64,000 nucleotides of DNA from Sphingobium sp. WTD-1 (lineage in GTDB: Bacteria > Pseudomonadota > Alphaproteobacteria > Sphingomonadales > Sphingomonadaceae). Shown one piece after another: positions 41,245-47,258 of the stretch; positions within the stretch are counted from its first letter, which is position 1, and each line of letters begins with the position of its first letter. Location of the stretch: contig NZ_CP119127.1 of NCBI RefSeq assembly GCF_030128825.1, positions 3,348,001-3,412,000 of the forward strand, in the 5' to 3' direction. The position numbers and the translations under genes are program-made. The notes under the pieces were generated by a model, which saw only the letters and a program-made list of their open reading frames with translations, was not told where the DNA came from and did no database searches.

Positions 41245-41366
41245 GCGAACCTCTCGCGAAAAAATTGTGCGATAACGCAATTTACTGTTTGCAGAATCAA
41301 ATGTGCCTGCTAACAGCCCGCCCACACCGAAGCGATCAGCCACCAAGACTGATCGGCAACGGAATG

Positions 41367-41442
<76 letters not shown>

Positions 41443-41739: not shown

Positions 41740-41767
41740 TTGACACATCATATTTGATGTATAGATT
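41740..41767 (+). promoter_or_regulatory. Promoter with embedded palindromic operator
   Basis: A consensus -35 TTGACA (41740-41745) is followed at 16 bases by TAGATT (41762-41767) as -10. Between them is the perfect palindrome ACATCATATTTGATGT (41745-41760: six-base arms, TATT centre). A repressor bound there would block RNA polymerase. The expected transcription start falls at or one to two bases before the ATG at 41775, so the mRNA may be leaderless. The likely repressor is the helix-turn-helix protein encoded directly downstream. Confidence 0.65.
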
Positions 41768-41774
41768 GCTTTCG

Positions 41775-43088
41775 ATGGCAACCGCTTCCCTTATCACAAA
41801 TGAACGGCAGGAGCGGGAGGTCAGTGCGCTAATCGACCAGATTAGTCAGGCCCTGTCATCCGACCAAGTGCTAAAGCAAATCGTCGATGGCCTACCGCCA
41901 GAAGTCTTGAACGGCGTTCGGCGATCTCTGGTCACTGAACAGCAGGAACTAATCGAGAGCCTAGAAGCCTATCGCACTGCGCAAGGCGGCGATGTGACTG
42001 GACTCAAAGCGCGTGCCGGCAATGACCTAGGAGCATTGCTTGTGGCCGCGAGAGTAGCCAAGGGCTGGAAGCAGAAGGAATTGGCTCGCCGCCTTTTTCT
42101 CCCTGAGCAACAGGTTCAACGATATGAGGCGGAGCGTTACCGCAGCATCAGTCTATCCGGCCTCCAGCGCGTAGCGCGCACGCTTGGTATCAGACTCACA
42201 GCCCACATCGACCAGCCCCTGCAAGAGCCGTGGCTTCCATCTTACGAGATGTCGTCGAGCGAGCTTCAAAAGGTGTTGAAGCACGCACGCGAAAACGGTT
42301 GGCTCGACAAAGCCGACCAATCTGACGACAATGGAATTAGCCAGCTTCGCCGCACCGTCGCGGAGCATGTCGGCGAATATGGAACCCCTTCGTTGCTGCG
42401 GACTGGGTTGAACGTCCATGATCTATCCAAGGACTGGTTCCTGCTGGCGTGGAAGGCACAAGTCACGCGGAGCGCCCTCCGGCTAATTCAGCGAAAGAAG
42501 CCGAAATACCGTCCGCTCAATATGTCGTGGCTTAGTGCGTTGGTTAAGCTGAGCGCGCTCGACGATGGCCCTCTGCGGGCGAAGGAGATGCTTGCCGAAC
42601 AAGGCATCTTACTGGTCATCGAGCCGCAGATCGCCGGAATGCGTGTCGATGGTGCTGCATTTCTGATTGATGAGCATCCAGTGATCGGCCTAACCCTCCG
42701 GCTCGATACCGTGGACAATTTTTGGTTCACGCTGATGCACGAGATGGGGCATGTTATTTTGCACTATCGAACCGGATTGGCGTCCGGGTTCTTCGATGAC
42801 TTTGAACATCTCGAAATCGATGAGATGGAAGAGGAAGCGAACCGCTTTGCCCAAAACATGCTTATTCCCGATGCGGTTTGGAGTAAATCGCCAGCACGCA
42901 TTGCCAAGACTGCGGAGCCAGTCGAACGCTTGGCGAAACAGTTGGAGATAGCGCCTGCGATTATATTCGGTCGCTTGCGTATGGAGAGGCAAAACTACAA
43001 GATATTCTCTGACAAAATTGGGCGGGGCCGTGTTCGAAAGCAGCTCCTCAGCAAAACAGTCGAGGTGAATAATGAACGCGTCATATAG
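41775..43088 (+). CDS. HTH + ImmA/IrrE-type metalloprotease, gop-like
   Basis: A 437-residue protein. Residues ~5-75 form a charged helical region; ~86-140 is an XRE-like helix-turn-helix (LGALLVAARVAKGWKQKELA, then EQQVQRYEAE). The C-terminal part is an ImmA/IrrE-type zinc peptidase with H322-E-M-G-H326 in FTLMHEMGHVILH and the downstream EEEANRFAQNMLIP helix supplying the third ligand. A frame with an extra six codons starts at 41757, but that ATG lies inside the operator, so I start at 41775. It overlaps a beta-family gene by 17 bases. From memory, P4 satellite phage has the same gene pair, gop-beta, where Gop kills the cell unless Beta is present. Homology to Gop itself is inferred. Confidence 0.82.
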   Translation: MATASLITNERQEREVSALIDQISQALSSDQVLKQIVDGLPPEVLNGVRRSLVTEQQELIESLEAYRTAQGGDVTGLKARAGNDLGALLVAARVAKGWKQKELARRLFLPEQQVQRYEAERYRSISLSGLQRVARTLGIRLTAHIDQPLQEPWLPSYEMSSSELQKVLKHARENGWLDKADQSDDNGISQLRRTVAEHVGEYGTPSLLRTGLNVHDLSKDWFLLAWKAQVTRSALRLIQRKKPKYRPLNMSWLSALVKLSALDDGPLRAKEMLAEQGILLVIEPQIAGMRVDGAAFLIDEHPVIGLTLRLDTVDNFWFTLMHEMGHVILHYRTGLASGFFDDFEHLEIDEMEEEANRFAQNMLIPDAVWSKSPARIAKTAEPVERLAKQLEIAPAIIFGRLRMERQNYKIFSDKIGRGRVRKQLLSKTVEVNNERVI

Positions 43089-44211
43089 GCCGGTCTATTG
43101 CAGCGCTCTTCGGATGAAGGCTGGAGAGTTGGAAGGGGTCCGCCAGCTTGCGCCGGACGTTGCAGATAGCGTTCTGCCGCGCTTTATTGTCCCTCCTAAA
43201 AAGGAGCGGAACGACGCAGAGCCACTTCTGATCGAGATGGTCGAGATGCCAGACATCAGCGTGGCACTCGCAGCGCATTGGCGAGACCGCCCCGCGCTCA
43301 TCGACGCCACCTACATCCTGGACGAATATGGCCGGGATCGTCTGGCGGCATGGTTGCCGAATATGTTTCAGCGCGCATGGGCGGCTGGCGTGATTGCGGT
43401 CCCTATCGCTCAGCTCTCAGACTTAGGCAGCGCAGAAATTCAGGCTTTCCGAGCATCCATCCCCGGACAGTCACCGCTCAAATTCGCTGTCTGTGTTTCA
43501 TCAGACGAGTTGGTTGGGGCGGAGTTGCGCACAACCCTCTTGAATATCCTGTTATCGTTGGGGCTAAATCCAGCTGATTGTGCAGTGGTAGCTGACTTTG
43601 CCAGTGCCGAACTCTCGGACCCGATGATAGCCGCCCCGATCATCAGCGGTGCGCTTGAAACCTTGCAGGAGATCGGCGCGTGGCGGCACATCATCTTTCA
43701 GGGCACGCATTATCCCGAAGTGAATCCGGCTAAGGACGGCACTGTCGAAATTTGGCCGCGCAACGAATGGCTGGCGTGGCGCGAAGCGGTGCGGTTTGAT
43801 CCTACGACGGCCGATTATATGATTTTCGGTGACTATGCCGCCGATTGCGCAAAGATGGCCTTCGGAGGTGGGGGTGCCCCGGCCATTCGCCATATCCGTT
43901 ACACGACGCCCGGCGCGTGGCGTGTCCAGCGCGCGGTTAAGGCGGGCAAGGACGGGCAACGGATGCACGGAGTTTATAAGGCGATCGTCGATAGCGGCGA
44001 TTTTGCCGGCGAGGGCTTTTCGAGCGCCGATACCTTCATCGCAAACGGAGCAAAGAATCCGACAGCAGGCCCCGGCAACTCGACCACATGGCGGCAGCTA
44101 AACACGACGCATCACATCACGCAGGTTGTCAGCGACATTGCGAAGGTGCGGGGAATCTCCATCAAAAAGGCTCCAGCATCGGAGGAAACCCAACTCGGCC
44201 TGTTGGTCTAA
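43072..44211 (+). CDS. Beta family protein (P4 Beta-like)
   Basis: A 379-residue soluble protein without signal or membrane segments. Its opening, YRPVYCSALRMKAGELEGVR then DSVLPRFIVPPKK, follows the pattern of the 'beta family' proteins (Y-x-P...K-x-GE...L-P), named after satellite phage P4 Beta. A TIM-barrel-like series of strands follows, with DATYILDEYG and FGDYAADCAKMAF. The ATG has GAGGTG eight bases upstream and lies inside the end of the preceding metalloprotease gene, so the two are coupled. In P4, Beta prevents killing by Gop; the same antitoxin-like role here is inference. The biochemical activity is not known. Confidence 0.75.
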   Translation: MNASYRPVYCSALRMKAGELEGVRQLAPDVADSVLPRFIVPPKKERNDAEPLLIEMVEMPDISVALAAHWRDRPALIDATYILDEYGRDRLAAWLPNMFQRAWAAGVIAVPIAQLSDLGSAEIQAFRASIPGQSPLKFAVCVSSDELVGAELRTTLLNILLSLGLNPADCAVVADFASAELSDPMIAAPIISGALETLQEIGAWRHIIFQGTHYPEVNPAKDGTVEIWPRNEWLAWREAVRFDPTTADYMIFGDYAADCAKMAFGGGGAPAIRHIRYTTPGAWRVQRAVKAGKDGQRMHGVYKAIVDSGDFAGEGFSSADTFIANGAKNPTAGPGNSTTWRQLNTTHHITQVVSDIAKVRGISIKKAPASEETQLGLLV

Positions 44212-44561: not shown

Positions 44562-44963
44562 TCATCCGAAGATCCCGCAAGTTGCAGTAACTTTCCGGGA
44601 AGCCTCGGGGCCATCGCTCATGAAGAATACATCGGCGTCGATGACGGCGAACCACTGATCTCCGGTCATCCCTCCAAGCCCATTGCGGGCATTTACAAAG
44701 CCGCAAACGGCCTCGCTTCCATCCATATGAACCACCTTGACACCGGTGAACGCAGCGCTGTCCGGTTCACGCAGCCTCACCTTCACCAATGTCTCTGCGA
44801 CGCGGATTGCCGGTTTATCGGCATCAAGCCGCGCCTGCTTGGCAACAACTTCCTTCCCCTCCGGTGTTGCATCATAGAGGAGTTTCAAACCCATAGTCCC
44901 GATGCCAAGCACAAGTGCAAAAACCGCGATCCCTTTCAGTGCATTCTTGGTCCGGTTGCTCAT
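44562..44963 (-). CDS. Membrane-anchored hypothetical protein
   Basis: A 133-residue protein with one N-terminal membrane helix (about 10-30: GIAVFALVLGIGTMGLKLLY) and a soluble domain outside. The domain has the pattern LREPDSAAFTGVKVV, AVCGFVNARNGLGGMTGDQW and a second Cys near the end (ATCGIFG), a pattern seen in small phage, plasmid and island proteins of unknown function. AAGGAG six bases before the ATG at 44963 is a strong ribosome site. It is transcribed toward beta, as cII is in P4, but I see no sequence basis to call it CII. Confidence 0.7.
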   Translation of the reverse strand: MSNRTKNALKGIAVFALVLGIGTMGLKLLYDATPEGKEVVAKQARLDADKPAIRVAETLVKVRLREPDSAAFTGVKVVHMDGSEAVCGFVNARNGLGGMTGDQWFAVIDADVFFMSDGPEASRKVTATCGIFG

Positions 44964-45046
44964 CAATATCTCCTTCTGAGCAGGCGGAGATACATGGAGG
45001 CGGTTAAAAATGGGTATGATCGTCCGTGGACTGAAAGTCCTCTTCC

Positions 45047-45289
45047 ATGTGCTTTCGCGCAGTGGCCCAGAACGAACTCAAGGAACTTGGCAGGCGCATC
45101 AGGCAGCGCCGTAAAAGCCTTGGCTGGAGTCAAGAACAGTTCGCGCTGGAAGCGGAGATCGACCGATCCTACGTCGGCGGTGTCGAGCGTGGTCAACGCA
45201 ACCTGACGTTCACGGTGCTTTGTCGGCTGTGTGCCGCGTTGGGGTGTGATGTGGCGGCGCTTACTGGAAATTTGCCCACAGAGAGCTAA
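45047..45289 (+). CDS. Small XRE-family helix-turn-helix protein
   Basis: An 80-residue protein that is nearly all DNA-binding domain: LGRRIRQRRKSLGWSQEQFA, EIDRSYVGGVERGQRNLT, LCRLCAALGCDVAAL. A P22 C2/Cro-like repressor fold is clear. It is divergent from the membrane-anchored protein, with 83 bases between, and a small hairpin (GGACT/AGTCC, 45028-45040) precedes its start. The ribosome site is weak; GTG at 45062 is an alternative. It may control the integrase side of the element or act as excisionase. Confidence 0.8.
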   Translation: MCFRAVAQNELKELGRRIRQRRKSLGWSQEQFALEAEIDRSYVGGVERGQRNLTFTVLCRLCAALGCDVAALTGNLPTES

Positions 45290-45391: not shown

Positions 45392-45467
45392 TGGTGGATC
45401 GTCTTGGGCTCGAACCAAGGACCGGACGATTAAGAGTCGTCTGCTCTACCAACTGAGCTAACGATCC
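45392..45467 (-). tRNA. Island-borne tRNA-Lys(CTT), copy 1
   Basis: A complete 76-base cloverleaf with encoded CCA on the minus strand. Acceptor GGATCGT/ACGATCC, D stem GCTC/GAGC, anticodon stem GACGA/TCGTC, loop CTCTTAA (anticodon CTT) and T arm CTTGG-TTCGAGC-CCAAG. All stems pair perfectly. Relative to the host tRNA-Lys, four acceptor pairs and two anticodon-stem pairs are changed with compensation, while the D arm, anticodon loop and T arm are identical. It is not a by-product of integration. Confidence 0.95.
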
Positions 45468-45511: not shown

Positions 45512-45587
45512 TGGTGGATCGTCTTGGGCTCGAACCAAGGACCAGACGATTAAGAGTCGTCTGCTCTACCAACTGAGCTAACGATCC
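45512..45587 (-). tRNA. Island-borne tRNA-Lys(CTT), copy 2
   Basis: Identical to the copy at 45392-45467 except for one variable-loop base (T in place of C on the tRNA strand). Forty-four bases separate the copies, and both are read in the integrase direction. Copy 2 is promoter-proximal. All stems are intact and the CCA is encoded. Confidence 0.95.
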
Positions 45588-45644: not shown

Positions 45645-46991
45645 TCATGTTTTTTTGCCCCCTGTCGCGATCGCTTCCGCGCGATCTTTCTGAATGGCTG
45701 CGTGAGCGGCAAGCCTGATCGGATCAAGGTGCTCTGCCCAGATGCGGAGCGCCGCCTTCTTCTCGGCGAAATAGTCGTGGCAATCGTAATTGCCACGCAC
45801 GCCACCGATAATGTGGTTGATCACCCGCTCGACCGTATCGGACAGAATAAGGGGGCGATCGTGCCCGTCCCGCAGCCCTCGCATCCCCGTCGCCAGTGTC
45901 CGGCGCAAGTCATGGACGGTGAACCTCTCCATCTTCTTGCGCTCCTTGATCGCGTACTTTTGGCACGCGTCGTTCAGTGCATTCATGGGCTTGGTGAAGG
46001 TAGTAAGCTCCTTCGACGTATCCTTGCCCTTTTCCACCACCTCACCTTGTCGCCAAGAATAAGGAGCAGGCCACACATATTTGTAGTCACCGGTGAGACA
46101 CTTGCGCTTCCGCAGAATCGCTGTGACCGTGTCCGGCATCCACAAGAGCAGGTCTAACCCGTTCTTGATGCGGTCACCGCTGATCATGATTGTGTTGTCC
46201 TCGAAGCGCACCTCCTTCCACGTCAACCCAGCCGCTTCGCTCCGGCGGAGGCCCGTGTAGAGGATCACGGTCAGCATCTCGGCGAAGGTGTCGCGAGCCA
46301 AATAGGTTCCTTTGAAGAACATGCCGATCTCGTAATTCGTCAAATAGCGGCGGCGCTTGTTCTCGTCAGCGAGGCATACCAGATCGATTGCCGGGTTCGC
46401 TTTCAGGCCGGTCACTCCTCGGCCGCGAGTCACACCCCACTTCCACCACCGGGCGATCAGCGCCTTGAGCCGGTTCGATGCCGGCCCCTTCCCTTCCGAG
46501 AACTTCTTCTGCACGATCGCTGCCAGATCGTCATAGGTGATGGTGTCAATCTGACGCTCACCAAGCGTCGGCTTGATCTCTCGGTTGTAGGTGGTCCGCT
46601 TCTCCTTGGCGGTCTTTCGGGTCTCCCCTTCTTGCGCCATATACTGGTCAAACATCCAGTCGCAGGTGAAGGCGGCGCGAGGATCGATTGCTGGCTCGGA
46701 CGGCTCCTCGTTGGGTATGATGAAGCTCATCTCCCTCCCCTCGATCTTCGCGGTGTTGATCTCAGTCGCGCGCTCGCGGGCAGTGGCAAGGTCCATGCCA
46801 CCAGTGACCAACCATTGGCCAAGCGTGATCGTCTTCGTTTCGCCATTTAGCTTACCGTGCCACGACCATATTTTGCGGCCTGTAGGGTGGACGGTGAGGA
46901 GGAGATTGGCCACAACGGAGTCGGTGAAACGCTGTTTCTTATCGGCCGGTTTGACCCCCTTTATGAAGACAGCGGTGAGTTGCTTTTTCAC
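45645..46991 (-). CDS. Tyrosine-type site-specific integrase
   Basis: Recombinase of 448 residues that inserts the element into tRNA-Lys. It has an N-terminal DUF4102-like arm-binding domain (about 1-90), a core-binding SAM-like domain (about 105-190) and a catalytic domain from about 215. The catalytic residues are R249 (YTGLRRSEAAGL), H360-x-x-R363 (VHDLRRTLATGM), H393 (INHIIGG) and nucleophile Y407 (HDYFAEKKAAL). I prefer GTG at 46991, ten bases after AAGGAG, over a GTG 27 codons upstream. It reads inward from the right end, with its stop next to the two tRNA genes. Confidence 0.93.
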   Translation of the reverse strand: MKKQLTAVFIKGVKPADKKQRFTDSVVANLLLTVHPTGRKIWSWHGKLNGETKTITLGQWLVTGGMDLATARERATEINTAKIEGREMSFIIPNEEPSEPAIDPRAAFTCDWMFDQYMAQEGETRKTAKEKRTTYNREIKPTLGERQIDTITYDDLAAIVQKKFSEGKGPASNRLKALIARWWKWGVTRGRGVTGLKANPAIDLVCLADENKRRRYLTNYEIGMFFKGTYLARDTFAEMLTVILYTGLRRSEAAGLTWKEVRFEDNTIMISGDRIKNGLDLLLWMPDTVTAILRKRKCLTGDYKYVWPAPYSWRQGEVVEKGKDTSKELTTFTKPMNALNDACQKYAIKERKKMERFTVHDLRRTLATGMRGLRDGHDRPLILSDTVERVINHIIGGVRGNYDCHDYFAEKKAALRIWAEHLDPIRLAAHAAIQKDRAEAIATGGKKT

Positions 46992-47213
46992 GCTGGTAGC
47001 GCTCCTTGATGACGCAGATTTCCACCTCGCTTCTAAGCCACCGTAGATCGCGCCACAAGGACACTGCCTCACTCCTGCCTCACTTTTCCACGTTACGGAG
47101 CGTTATACTGGGTTACAGCATGAGACAGAAAAATGGAGAAAAGTCCCATTTGCCCTCAGATTTTATGTAACATTTTGATCCATGCGGTTTCAGGCTGTAA
47201 CGACATCTTGTCG

Positions 47214-47258
47214 CTCTTAATCAGCGGGTCCTTGGTTCGAGCCCAAGTGCGTCCACCA
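47214..47258 (+). repeat. attR: duplicate 3' half of tRNA-Lys
   Basis: Exact 45-base copy of 41398-41442. It starts in the anticodon loop, so it cannot make a tRNA; it marks the right end of the element and is the remains of the original host tRNA 3' half. Confidence 0.95.

Follow-up and report, generated by a model that had tools for sequence, protein, structure and literature searches.

The two-gene module and its promoter

The window considered here is the whole 64,000-nucleotide stretch of contig NZ_CP119127.1 of Sphingobium sp. WTD-1, and its subject is a module of two forward-strand genes, B and C, related to the phage-defence system PD-λ-2. Gene B (41775..43088, 437 amino acids (aa), ATG start) encodes a PD-λ-2B-like protein joining an XRE-type helix-turn-helix (HTH) to an M78 (ImmA/IrrE) metallopeptidase, and gene C (43072..44211, 379 aa, ATG start) encodes a PD-λ-2C-like protein of the Beta family, hereafter Beta, with a predicted TIM barrel. 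A first-pass annotation, made from the letters alone, had described an HTH plus ImmA/IrrE-type first protein overlapping by 17 bases a beta-family gene under a common promoter, and had singled out H322 and E323 of the first protein; in each of these respects the searches agree with it. The two reading frames share 17 nt, the mechanical list of open reading frames (ORFs) opening that of B at TTG 41754 and the ATG lying at 41775. Pfam places an HTH_3 domain at residues 91-142 of B (42045..42200, forward strand, 8.3e-8) and a Peptidase_M78 domain at residues 279-392 (1.1e-13), and assigns the product of gene C to Beta_protein (PF14350, 1.9e-48). The HExxH signature of B, read from the alignment as HEMGH at residues 322-326 (42738..42752, forward strand), belongs to a set of positions, H322, E323, H326 and E352, that showed no variation in 88/88 aligned B proteins; in M78/IrrE peptidases a Glu downstream of HExxH is the third ligand. 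The AlphaFold2 (AF2) model of B has a predicted local distance difference test (pLDDT) score of 83.8, and its top Foldseek matches were PprI/IrrE and HTH proteins, every one at E > 0.07 and nothing below E 0.001. The closest named relative of B is from Edaphosphingomonas haloaromaticamans (94% identity).

Directly before the first ATG stands the promoter-like sequence TTGACA-16-TAGATT (41740..41767, forward strand), with TTGACA at 41740, a spacing of 16 nt and TAGATT at 41762, ending at 41767. Its spacer carries an operator-like palindrome, ACACATCATATTTGATGTAT, at 41743-41762, which scores 15/16 as an operator site and which B presumably binds. Across the 5.67 Mb genome the 16-nt palindrome core is found exactly once, at the module's own promoter, and eight times with one mismatch. 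Since the start codon of B comes 8 nt past the -10 element, the mRNA of the module may be leaderless.

Relation to PD-λ-2 and the search for a first gene

Among the PADLOC defence models B matched PD-Lambda-2_B (1.6e-72, residues 121-426) and gene C matched PD-Lambda-2_C (3.3e-30), the PD-Lambda-2_C models being the sole PADLOC matches of the latter. PD-λ-2 works by abortive infection and consists of three genes, of which A is HigB-like, B an Xre-peptidase and C related to the P4 antitoxin; overexpressed B alone is toxic and is rescued by A, neutralising B did not require C, and defence against λvir needs C (Vassallo et al., 2022, PMC9519451). The same models matched a complete three-gene PD-λ-2 from the phylum sample (locus L181, the positive control) at 4.4e-27 for A, 6.9e-185 for B and 9.7e-156 for C.

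A hidden or decayed gene A was sought both in the 333 bp between the neighbouring tRNA-Lys gene and B and elsewhere in the genome, and was not found. PADLOC gave no match on four of the six small upstream ORFs, the remaining two (31 and 33 aa) lying outside the scan, and an A protein of each type, HigB and DUF6932, compared with the window by tblastn, returned chance matches only (best E 0.29). The PD-Lambda-2_A model (PDLC03980) matched nothing in the genome itself and was matched in 1/14 control genomes; a search for DUF6932 likewise found nothing in the genome, nor in any control genome, which makes it a weak negative taken alone.

Recurrence of the two-gene form

The B alignment was used to scan contigs, and the best 80 of at least 535 confirmed stretches, which are not a random sample, had their ORFs compared with profiles of B, Beta, cII and an A of the DUF6932 type. 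Forty of these 80 loci hold B and Beta only and 38 begin with a DUF6932 gene A, either as A, B, Beta and a convergent cII (34) or as A, B and Beta with cII undetected (4, the Beta of one of them, L111, reaching the end of the locus); in the other two B is alone, at a contig end (L056) or in a truncated locus (L099). The hosts of the two-gene loci are chiefly Alpha- and Betaproteobacteria, plus one Acidimicrobiales metagenome-assembled genome, and the pair also occurs on plasmids (L025, L026 and L029). A tree of B proteins was built with 47 two-gene tips (the window, the plasmid loci, L056 and L185 included), 40 A-bearing tips and L181; the two-gene B proteins were split from the A-bearing ones plus L181 with a support of 0.989, and the same split had a support of 0.984 in the tree without L181. 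The simplest reading of this topology would be that gene A was lost once in the two-gene group.

The palindrome recurs as well. With ACACAWCANNNNTGWTGTGT looked for at a fixed distance from HExxH and a threshold of at least 13/16, it precedes B in 41/42 two-gene loci (the window and the contig-cut L056 counted in, L099 out), the single locus under the threshold being L087 with a score of 12, and in 0/38 A-bearing loci and 3/208 control windows. An earlier count based on start codons (38/43 two-gene, 1/38 A-bearing, 0/186 control) is superseded by this HExxH-anchored one, and a scan on arm score only had a mixed outcome, in part from miscalled starts. Counted from start codons, the palindrome precedes gene A in 31/38 of the A-bearing loci. 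It thus usually lies ahead of whichever gene opens the operon, and this position argues against the two-gene form being truncated. By eye, two operator-like palindromes rather than one seem to precede B in L074, L075, L077, L083 and others.

That the module might be a decayed PD-λ-2 remnant, gene A having been lost by chance in this genome, is in keeping with the failure to find A here, but forty other loci share the architecture, fall into one group, carry the palindrome directly before B and keep the catalytic residues invariant. These features largely refute a chance loss, which we hold to be very improbable; on them the two-gene form does not look like decay and would rather be an intact recurrent unit.

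The C-terminal tail of Beta

The AF2 model of Beta (pLDDT 89.8, predicted template modelling score 0.90) found TIM barrels as structural matches, and a TIM barrel is accordingly the fold predicted for it. Conserved residues of Beta include E19, D78, D175, R230, D254, R276, H347 and H348. Near its C-terminus, at residues 374-378 (44191..44205, forward strand), motif comparison identified QLGLL. The consensus for binding the β sliding clamp is given as canonical QL[S/D]LF and in revised form as Q-phi-x-[L/M]-[F/L], phi being L, I, V or A (PMC13254535; also PMC3716654), and QLGLL fits the revised form. Residues 370-374 are modelled with pLDDT < 50. In Betas of the two-gene group the last long helix is followed by a short linker and often by Q-[L/M/F]-S-L-[L/F/I].

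A loose tail pattern, defined as Q..L[FLIMV] in the last 28 residues, was found in 85/120 database relatives, for which shuffling predicts 6.0. It is carried by 29/41 two-gene Betas (window included), 0/34 Betas of cII-bearing loci and 2/4 of those with gene A and no detected cII, and when sequences were clustered at 60% identity at least half of the members were positive in 19/27 two-gene and 0/17 cII-bearing clusters. Controls gave 0/146 for neighbouring proteins, 1/120 for B proteins and 50/1438 for non-tail windows of Beta. In the sample of the window's family, A-bearing loci without cII have the tail in 5/5 Betas (two of these loci, L043 and L044, seem identical to L131 and L129), and in the family and phylum samples the Betas of loci with a membrane protein and an M78 protein have it in 0/13. 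The published consensus is matched by the QLGLL of the window, by 9/41 two-gene loci (window included), by 47/120 database relatives and by 0/34 cII-bearing loci. Clamp motifs in the tails of other proteins of the loci were considered as a stand-in for the missing Beta tail and set aside (cII 0/34, A 0/38, B 3/80).

On this evidence it is possible, and we propose it tentatively, that the Betas of the two-gene group are TIM-barrel proteins whose C-terminal QLxL[L/F/I] peptide would attach them to the β sliding clamp, giving a replisome-tethered defence in which tethering takes the place of A and cII. The literature covered on PD-λ-2, gop-beta-cII and sce7726, which is short of full text and leaves subscription papers mostly outside, contains no pointer to a two-gene form devoid of A or to a clamp motif in Beta. 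If true, an accessory protein that docks on the clamp would represent a novel means of directing or setting off an XRE-M78 system of the toxin–antitoxin (TA) kind.

A proposed mechanism and the polarity of the pair

The explanation that we favour, with a probability of roughly 45% for the whole including its mechanism, is that the module is an intact, minimal, TA-like phage-defence operon of two genes, related to PD-λ-2 and devoid of its first gene. B would repress its own promoter through the palindrome and would be the potentially toxic protease arm, as overexpressed PD-λ-2B is; Beta would restrain B, position it, or both, as P4 Beta restrains Gop, and its QLxL[L/F/I] tail would tether it to the β sliding clamp, where phage replication could be sensed. 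Infection would then free B, whose proteolysis would shut the cell down ahead of phage release, i.e., by abortive infection. Autoregulation, toxicity, defence, clamp docking and the polarity of the module are what we infer here, and the killing or defence role suggested by the first-pass annotation is plausible.

Several points weigh against this explanation. In PD-λ-2 the protein neutralising B is A, C being dispensable for this (PMC9519451), so that Beta as a restraint in an operon without A is an extrapolation; the Rosmer pair RipAB has the reverse polarity, with Spr1629/RipB as antitoxin (PMC12795458). The loss of A, as opposed to its gain, is weakly supported, the branch on which the B tree is rooted with L181 having a support of 0.486, and the 80 loci, taken as the top scorers among at least 535 stretches, are not random ones. 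As for the tail, the motif is short, the loose pattern is missing from 12/41 two-gene Betas and is present also in the 50/1438 non-tail windows mentioned above, and the published five-residue consensus is limited to 9/41.

The polarity could also be that of RosmerTA, with Beta as an effector on the sliding clamp, its TIM barrel acting at forks, and B as an XRE-M78 antitoxin and repressor. The M78 region of B does match the PADLOC models of RmrA, the Rosmer antitoxin, with a best value of 2.1e-13, although partially and far below PD-Lambda-2_B; the spr1629 model aligns with residues 316-383 at 44 bits, the cut-off being 335. Beta bears the clamp-binding-like tail, several of its conserved polar residues come right after predicted barrel strands in the model, and in RipAB it is RipA that targets DnaN, RipB (Spr1629) being the antitoxin (PMC12795458). 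Conversely, Beta matches PD-Lambda-2_C models only, P4 Beta relieves and does not cause the toxicity of Gop (PMC9122126), and the PD-λ-2 component reported as toxic is B (PMC9519451). We therefore regard the reversed polarity as rather unlikely. An operon that recurs in nature and is reduced to XRE-M78 plus Beta offers the most compact setting for asking which of the components is toxic and what the function of Beta is.

The genomic island

The module is carried by an insert of about 5.8 kb at a host tRNA-Lys(CTT) gene (41366..41441, forward strand), whose last 45 bp (41397-41441) are repeated directly at the far boundary of the insert (47214..47258, forward strand). The boundaries come from a repeat search and from the empty site seen in two close genus relatives (L161/L162), in which rodA, two tandem tRNA-Lys genes and a TonB receptor follow one another; their flanks match those of the window with protein identities of 99.7-100% for rodA and 98.6-99.0% for the TonB receptor. 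Besides the module, the island encodes a tyrosine-recombinase integrase (45645..47072, reverse strand; Pfam Phage_integrase 1.6e-9), a small HTH protein (45047..45289, forward strand) matched by the PADLOC control-protein and CapH models, and a small leftward gene (44562..44966, reverse strand, 134 aa) that matches phrog_2320, of unknown function, in profile searches. Two tandem tRNA-Lys(CTT) copies at 45392-45467 and 45512-45587 (reverse strand) resemble the host gene at about 87% across 69 nt. An anti-nuclease role for these copies was set aside, as tandem tRNA-Lys genes lie beside rodA in 6/6 genus relatives, in two copies or, in one relative, four; the six were chosen among the top matches to the tRNA pair.

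Given this setting, the pair could serve the regulation or stability of the island itself, as an ImmR/ImmA-like switch or an addiction pair with no role in phage defence. Integrative elements are regulated by XRE and M78 proteins, and the module does sit on an integrated 5.8 kb element with an integrase. The pair is, however, also plasmid-borne, a protein resembling the integrase of this island (E ≤ 1e-5) was found in the flanks covered of only two two-gene loci (L077 and L073), the one exact genomic copy of the operator core is at the module's own promoter, and both gene families belong to experimentally demonstrated defence systems, PD-λ-2 and P4 gop-beta-cII (PMC9519451; PMC9122126). A purely island-serving role is thus improbable. 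A tRNA gene no further than about 200 bp from the module and with its 3' end facing it was found in 6/42 two-gene loci (L055, L075, L077, L085, L087 and L094), and these facing 3' ends are fitting for two-gene modules carried on tRNA-integrating elements. Among the 146 neighbouring proteins, GajB models of Gabija were matched by 4 and GajA models by 3, figures without a baseline from the 25 listed of 286 matched families; genes for AAA and UvrD proteins flank L026 and L031.

Partners of Beta across genomes

PF14350 is present in 23/397 genomes of the window's family and in 13/398 genomes of the phylum sample, the genome studied here being counted in each. Sorted by neighbours, the 23 family Betas comprise the two-gene form of the window (1), DUF6932-B-Beta loci (10, of which 5 with cII), a small membrane protein with a short M78 protein and Beta (11, of which 3 with cII) and Beta with cII (1); the Beta of L050 fell below the profile cut-off in this sorting, yet it matches PF14350. 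The phylum sample adds a further two-gene locus (L185). Judged by its neighbourhoods, Beta is a rare gene with exchangeable partners.

The trio of small membrane protein, standalone M78 protein and Beta is the commonest context in the family sample (L037, L038, L040, L042, L045-L048 and L050-L052). In L037 the M78 protein has a CapP match (9.8e-31), and many Beta tails of this trio end in acidic-aromatic residues (DEEWVD, DEPFTDD), a tip that recalls the SSB tail. Four-gene loci made of DUF6932, XRE-M78, Beta and a convergent sce7726-type gene with a cII model or profile match are L032-L036 and, in addition, L095, L097, L098, L100-L110, L112-L128, L130, L132 and L134. Gene A of the DUF6932 loci matches the PADLOC candidate PDC-M63A at 3.3e-9 to 6.6e-6; DUF6932 shows a GS...DxD motif that is presumably nucleotidyltransferase-like, and the cII/sce7726 proteins presumably resemble PD-(D/E)XK nucleases in their D...EIK pattern.

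A few further contexts were seen on the side. L186 (5040-6567, reverse strand) has Beta and cII with a first gene matching a GNAT acetyltransferase (4.4e-5) and a second with a weak M78 match; L053, L169, L189 and L191 have Beta beside a cII-like gene and no M78 protein by the profiles used, and in L054 (3530-5165, phage Rac-SA53) Beta lies beside a cII-like gene with no annotated gop. One relative of Beta with 55% identity (P0215) comes from a eukaryote transcriptome source and is possibly a bacterial contamination. Across these contexts the first gene of Beta loci varies widely, being HigB-like, of the DUF6932 type, a membrane protein gene or gop where there is one at all, and this suggests a shared core of Beta and, as a rule, an M78 protease, around which the other parts can be exchanged.

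Comparison with known systems

In the P4 record (X51522) Gop has 133 aa, Beta 355 aa and cII is convergent; gop is toxic when beta is missing, and the three genes gop-beta-cII confer protection from the phages λ and P1 (Rousset et al., 2022, PMC9122126). The first-pass annotation had cast the pair as such a module with a Gop-type killer as first protein, and this is the part of it that fails: P4 Gop has no M78 or HTH match in Pfam, its BLASTP similarity to B is at chance level (21.6 bits over 28 residues), and the PADLOC gop model is absent from the matches of B, which was accordingly rejected as a Gop homologue. The likeness of Beta to its P4 namesake stands as far as the shared family goes (P4 Beta matches PF14350 at 4.3e-56), with about 15% identity in the alignment and no match of the window Beta to the PADLOC P4 'beta' model. 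Likewise, two rightward genes followed by a leftward one do parallel the P4 order, but superficially, since the leftward gene (44562-44966) has no PADLOC match, hence none to cII, and was rejected as cII; a sce7726 gene of a relative, as positive comparison, matches the cII model at 3.4e-28. The island had rightly been placed outside any P4-like phage, the tRNA-Lys insert holding no recognisable one. What the window shares with P4 gop-beta-cII is a PF14350 protein partnering a neighbouring gene, and what it lacks is Gop and cII; with homology of the first gene refuted, a gop-beta module in the proper sense is scarcely credible here.

RosmerTA, as represented by RipAB, is alike in having an XRE-M78-type protein beside a partner, and RipA targets the sliding clamp (PMC12795458), but the partner in the window is a Beta-family protein. 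Closer are the DUF6932 loci, which provide the closest relatives outside the two-gene group of both B (about 30-36% identity) and C and which carry the same palindrome, there before their own first gene; they differ from the module in opening with a DUF6932 gene and in mostly having a cII-like (sce7726) gene in convergent orientation, and the Betas of the cII-bearing ones are devoid of the tail. PD-λ-2 is the nearest described system, from which the module is set apart as a variant and not counted as a member because the defining, HigB-like gene A was not found. The two differ further in the palindrome, which here precedes B, in the distance between the B proteins of the window and L181 (3.6 in the tree), and in the C-terminal QLGLL, present in the window Beta and not in that of L181; they agree in the succession of B, with its Xre HTH and C-terminal peptidase, and C, a Beta protein, in the same order and matched by the same PADLOC models.

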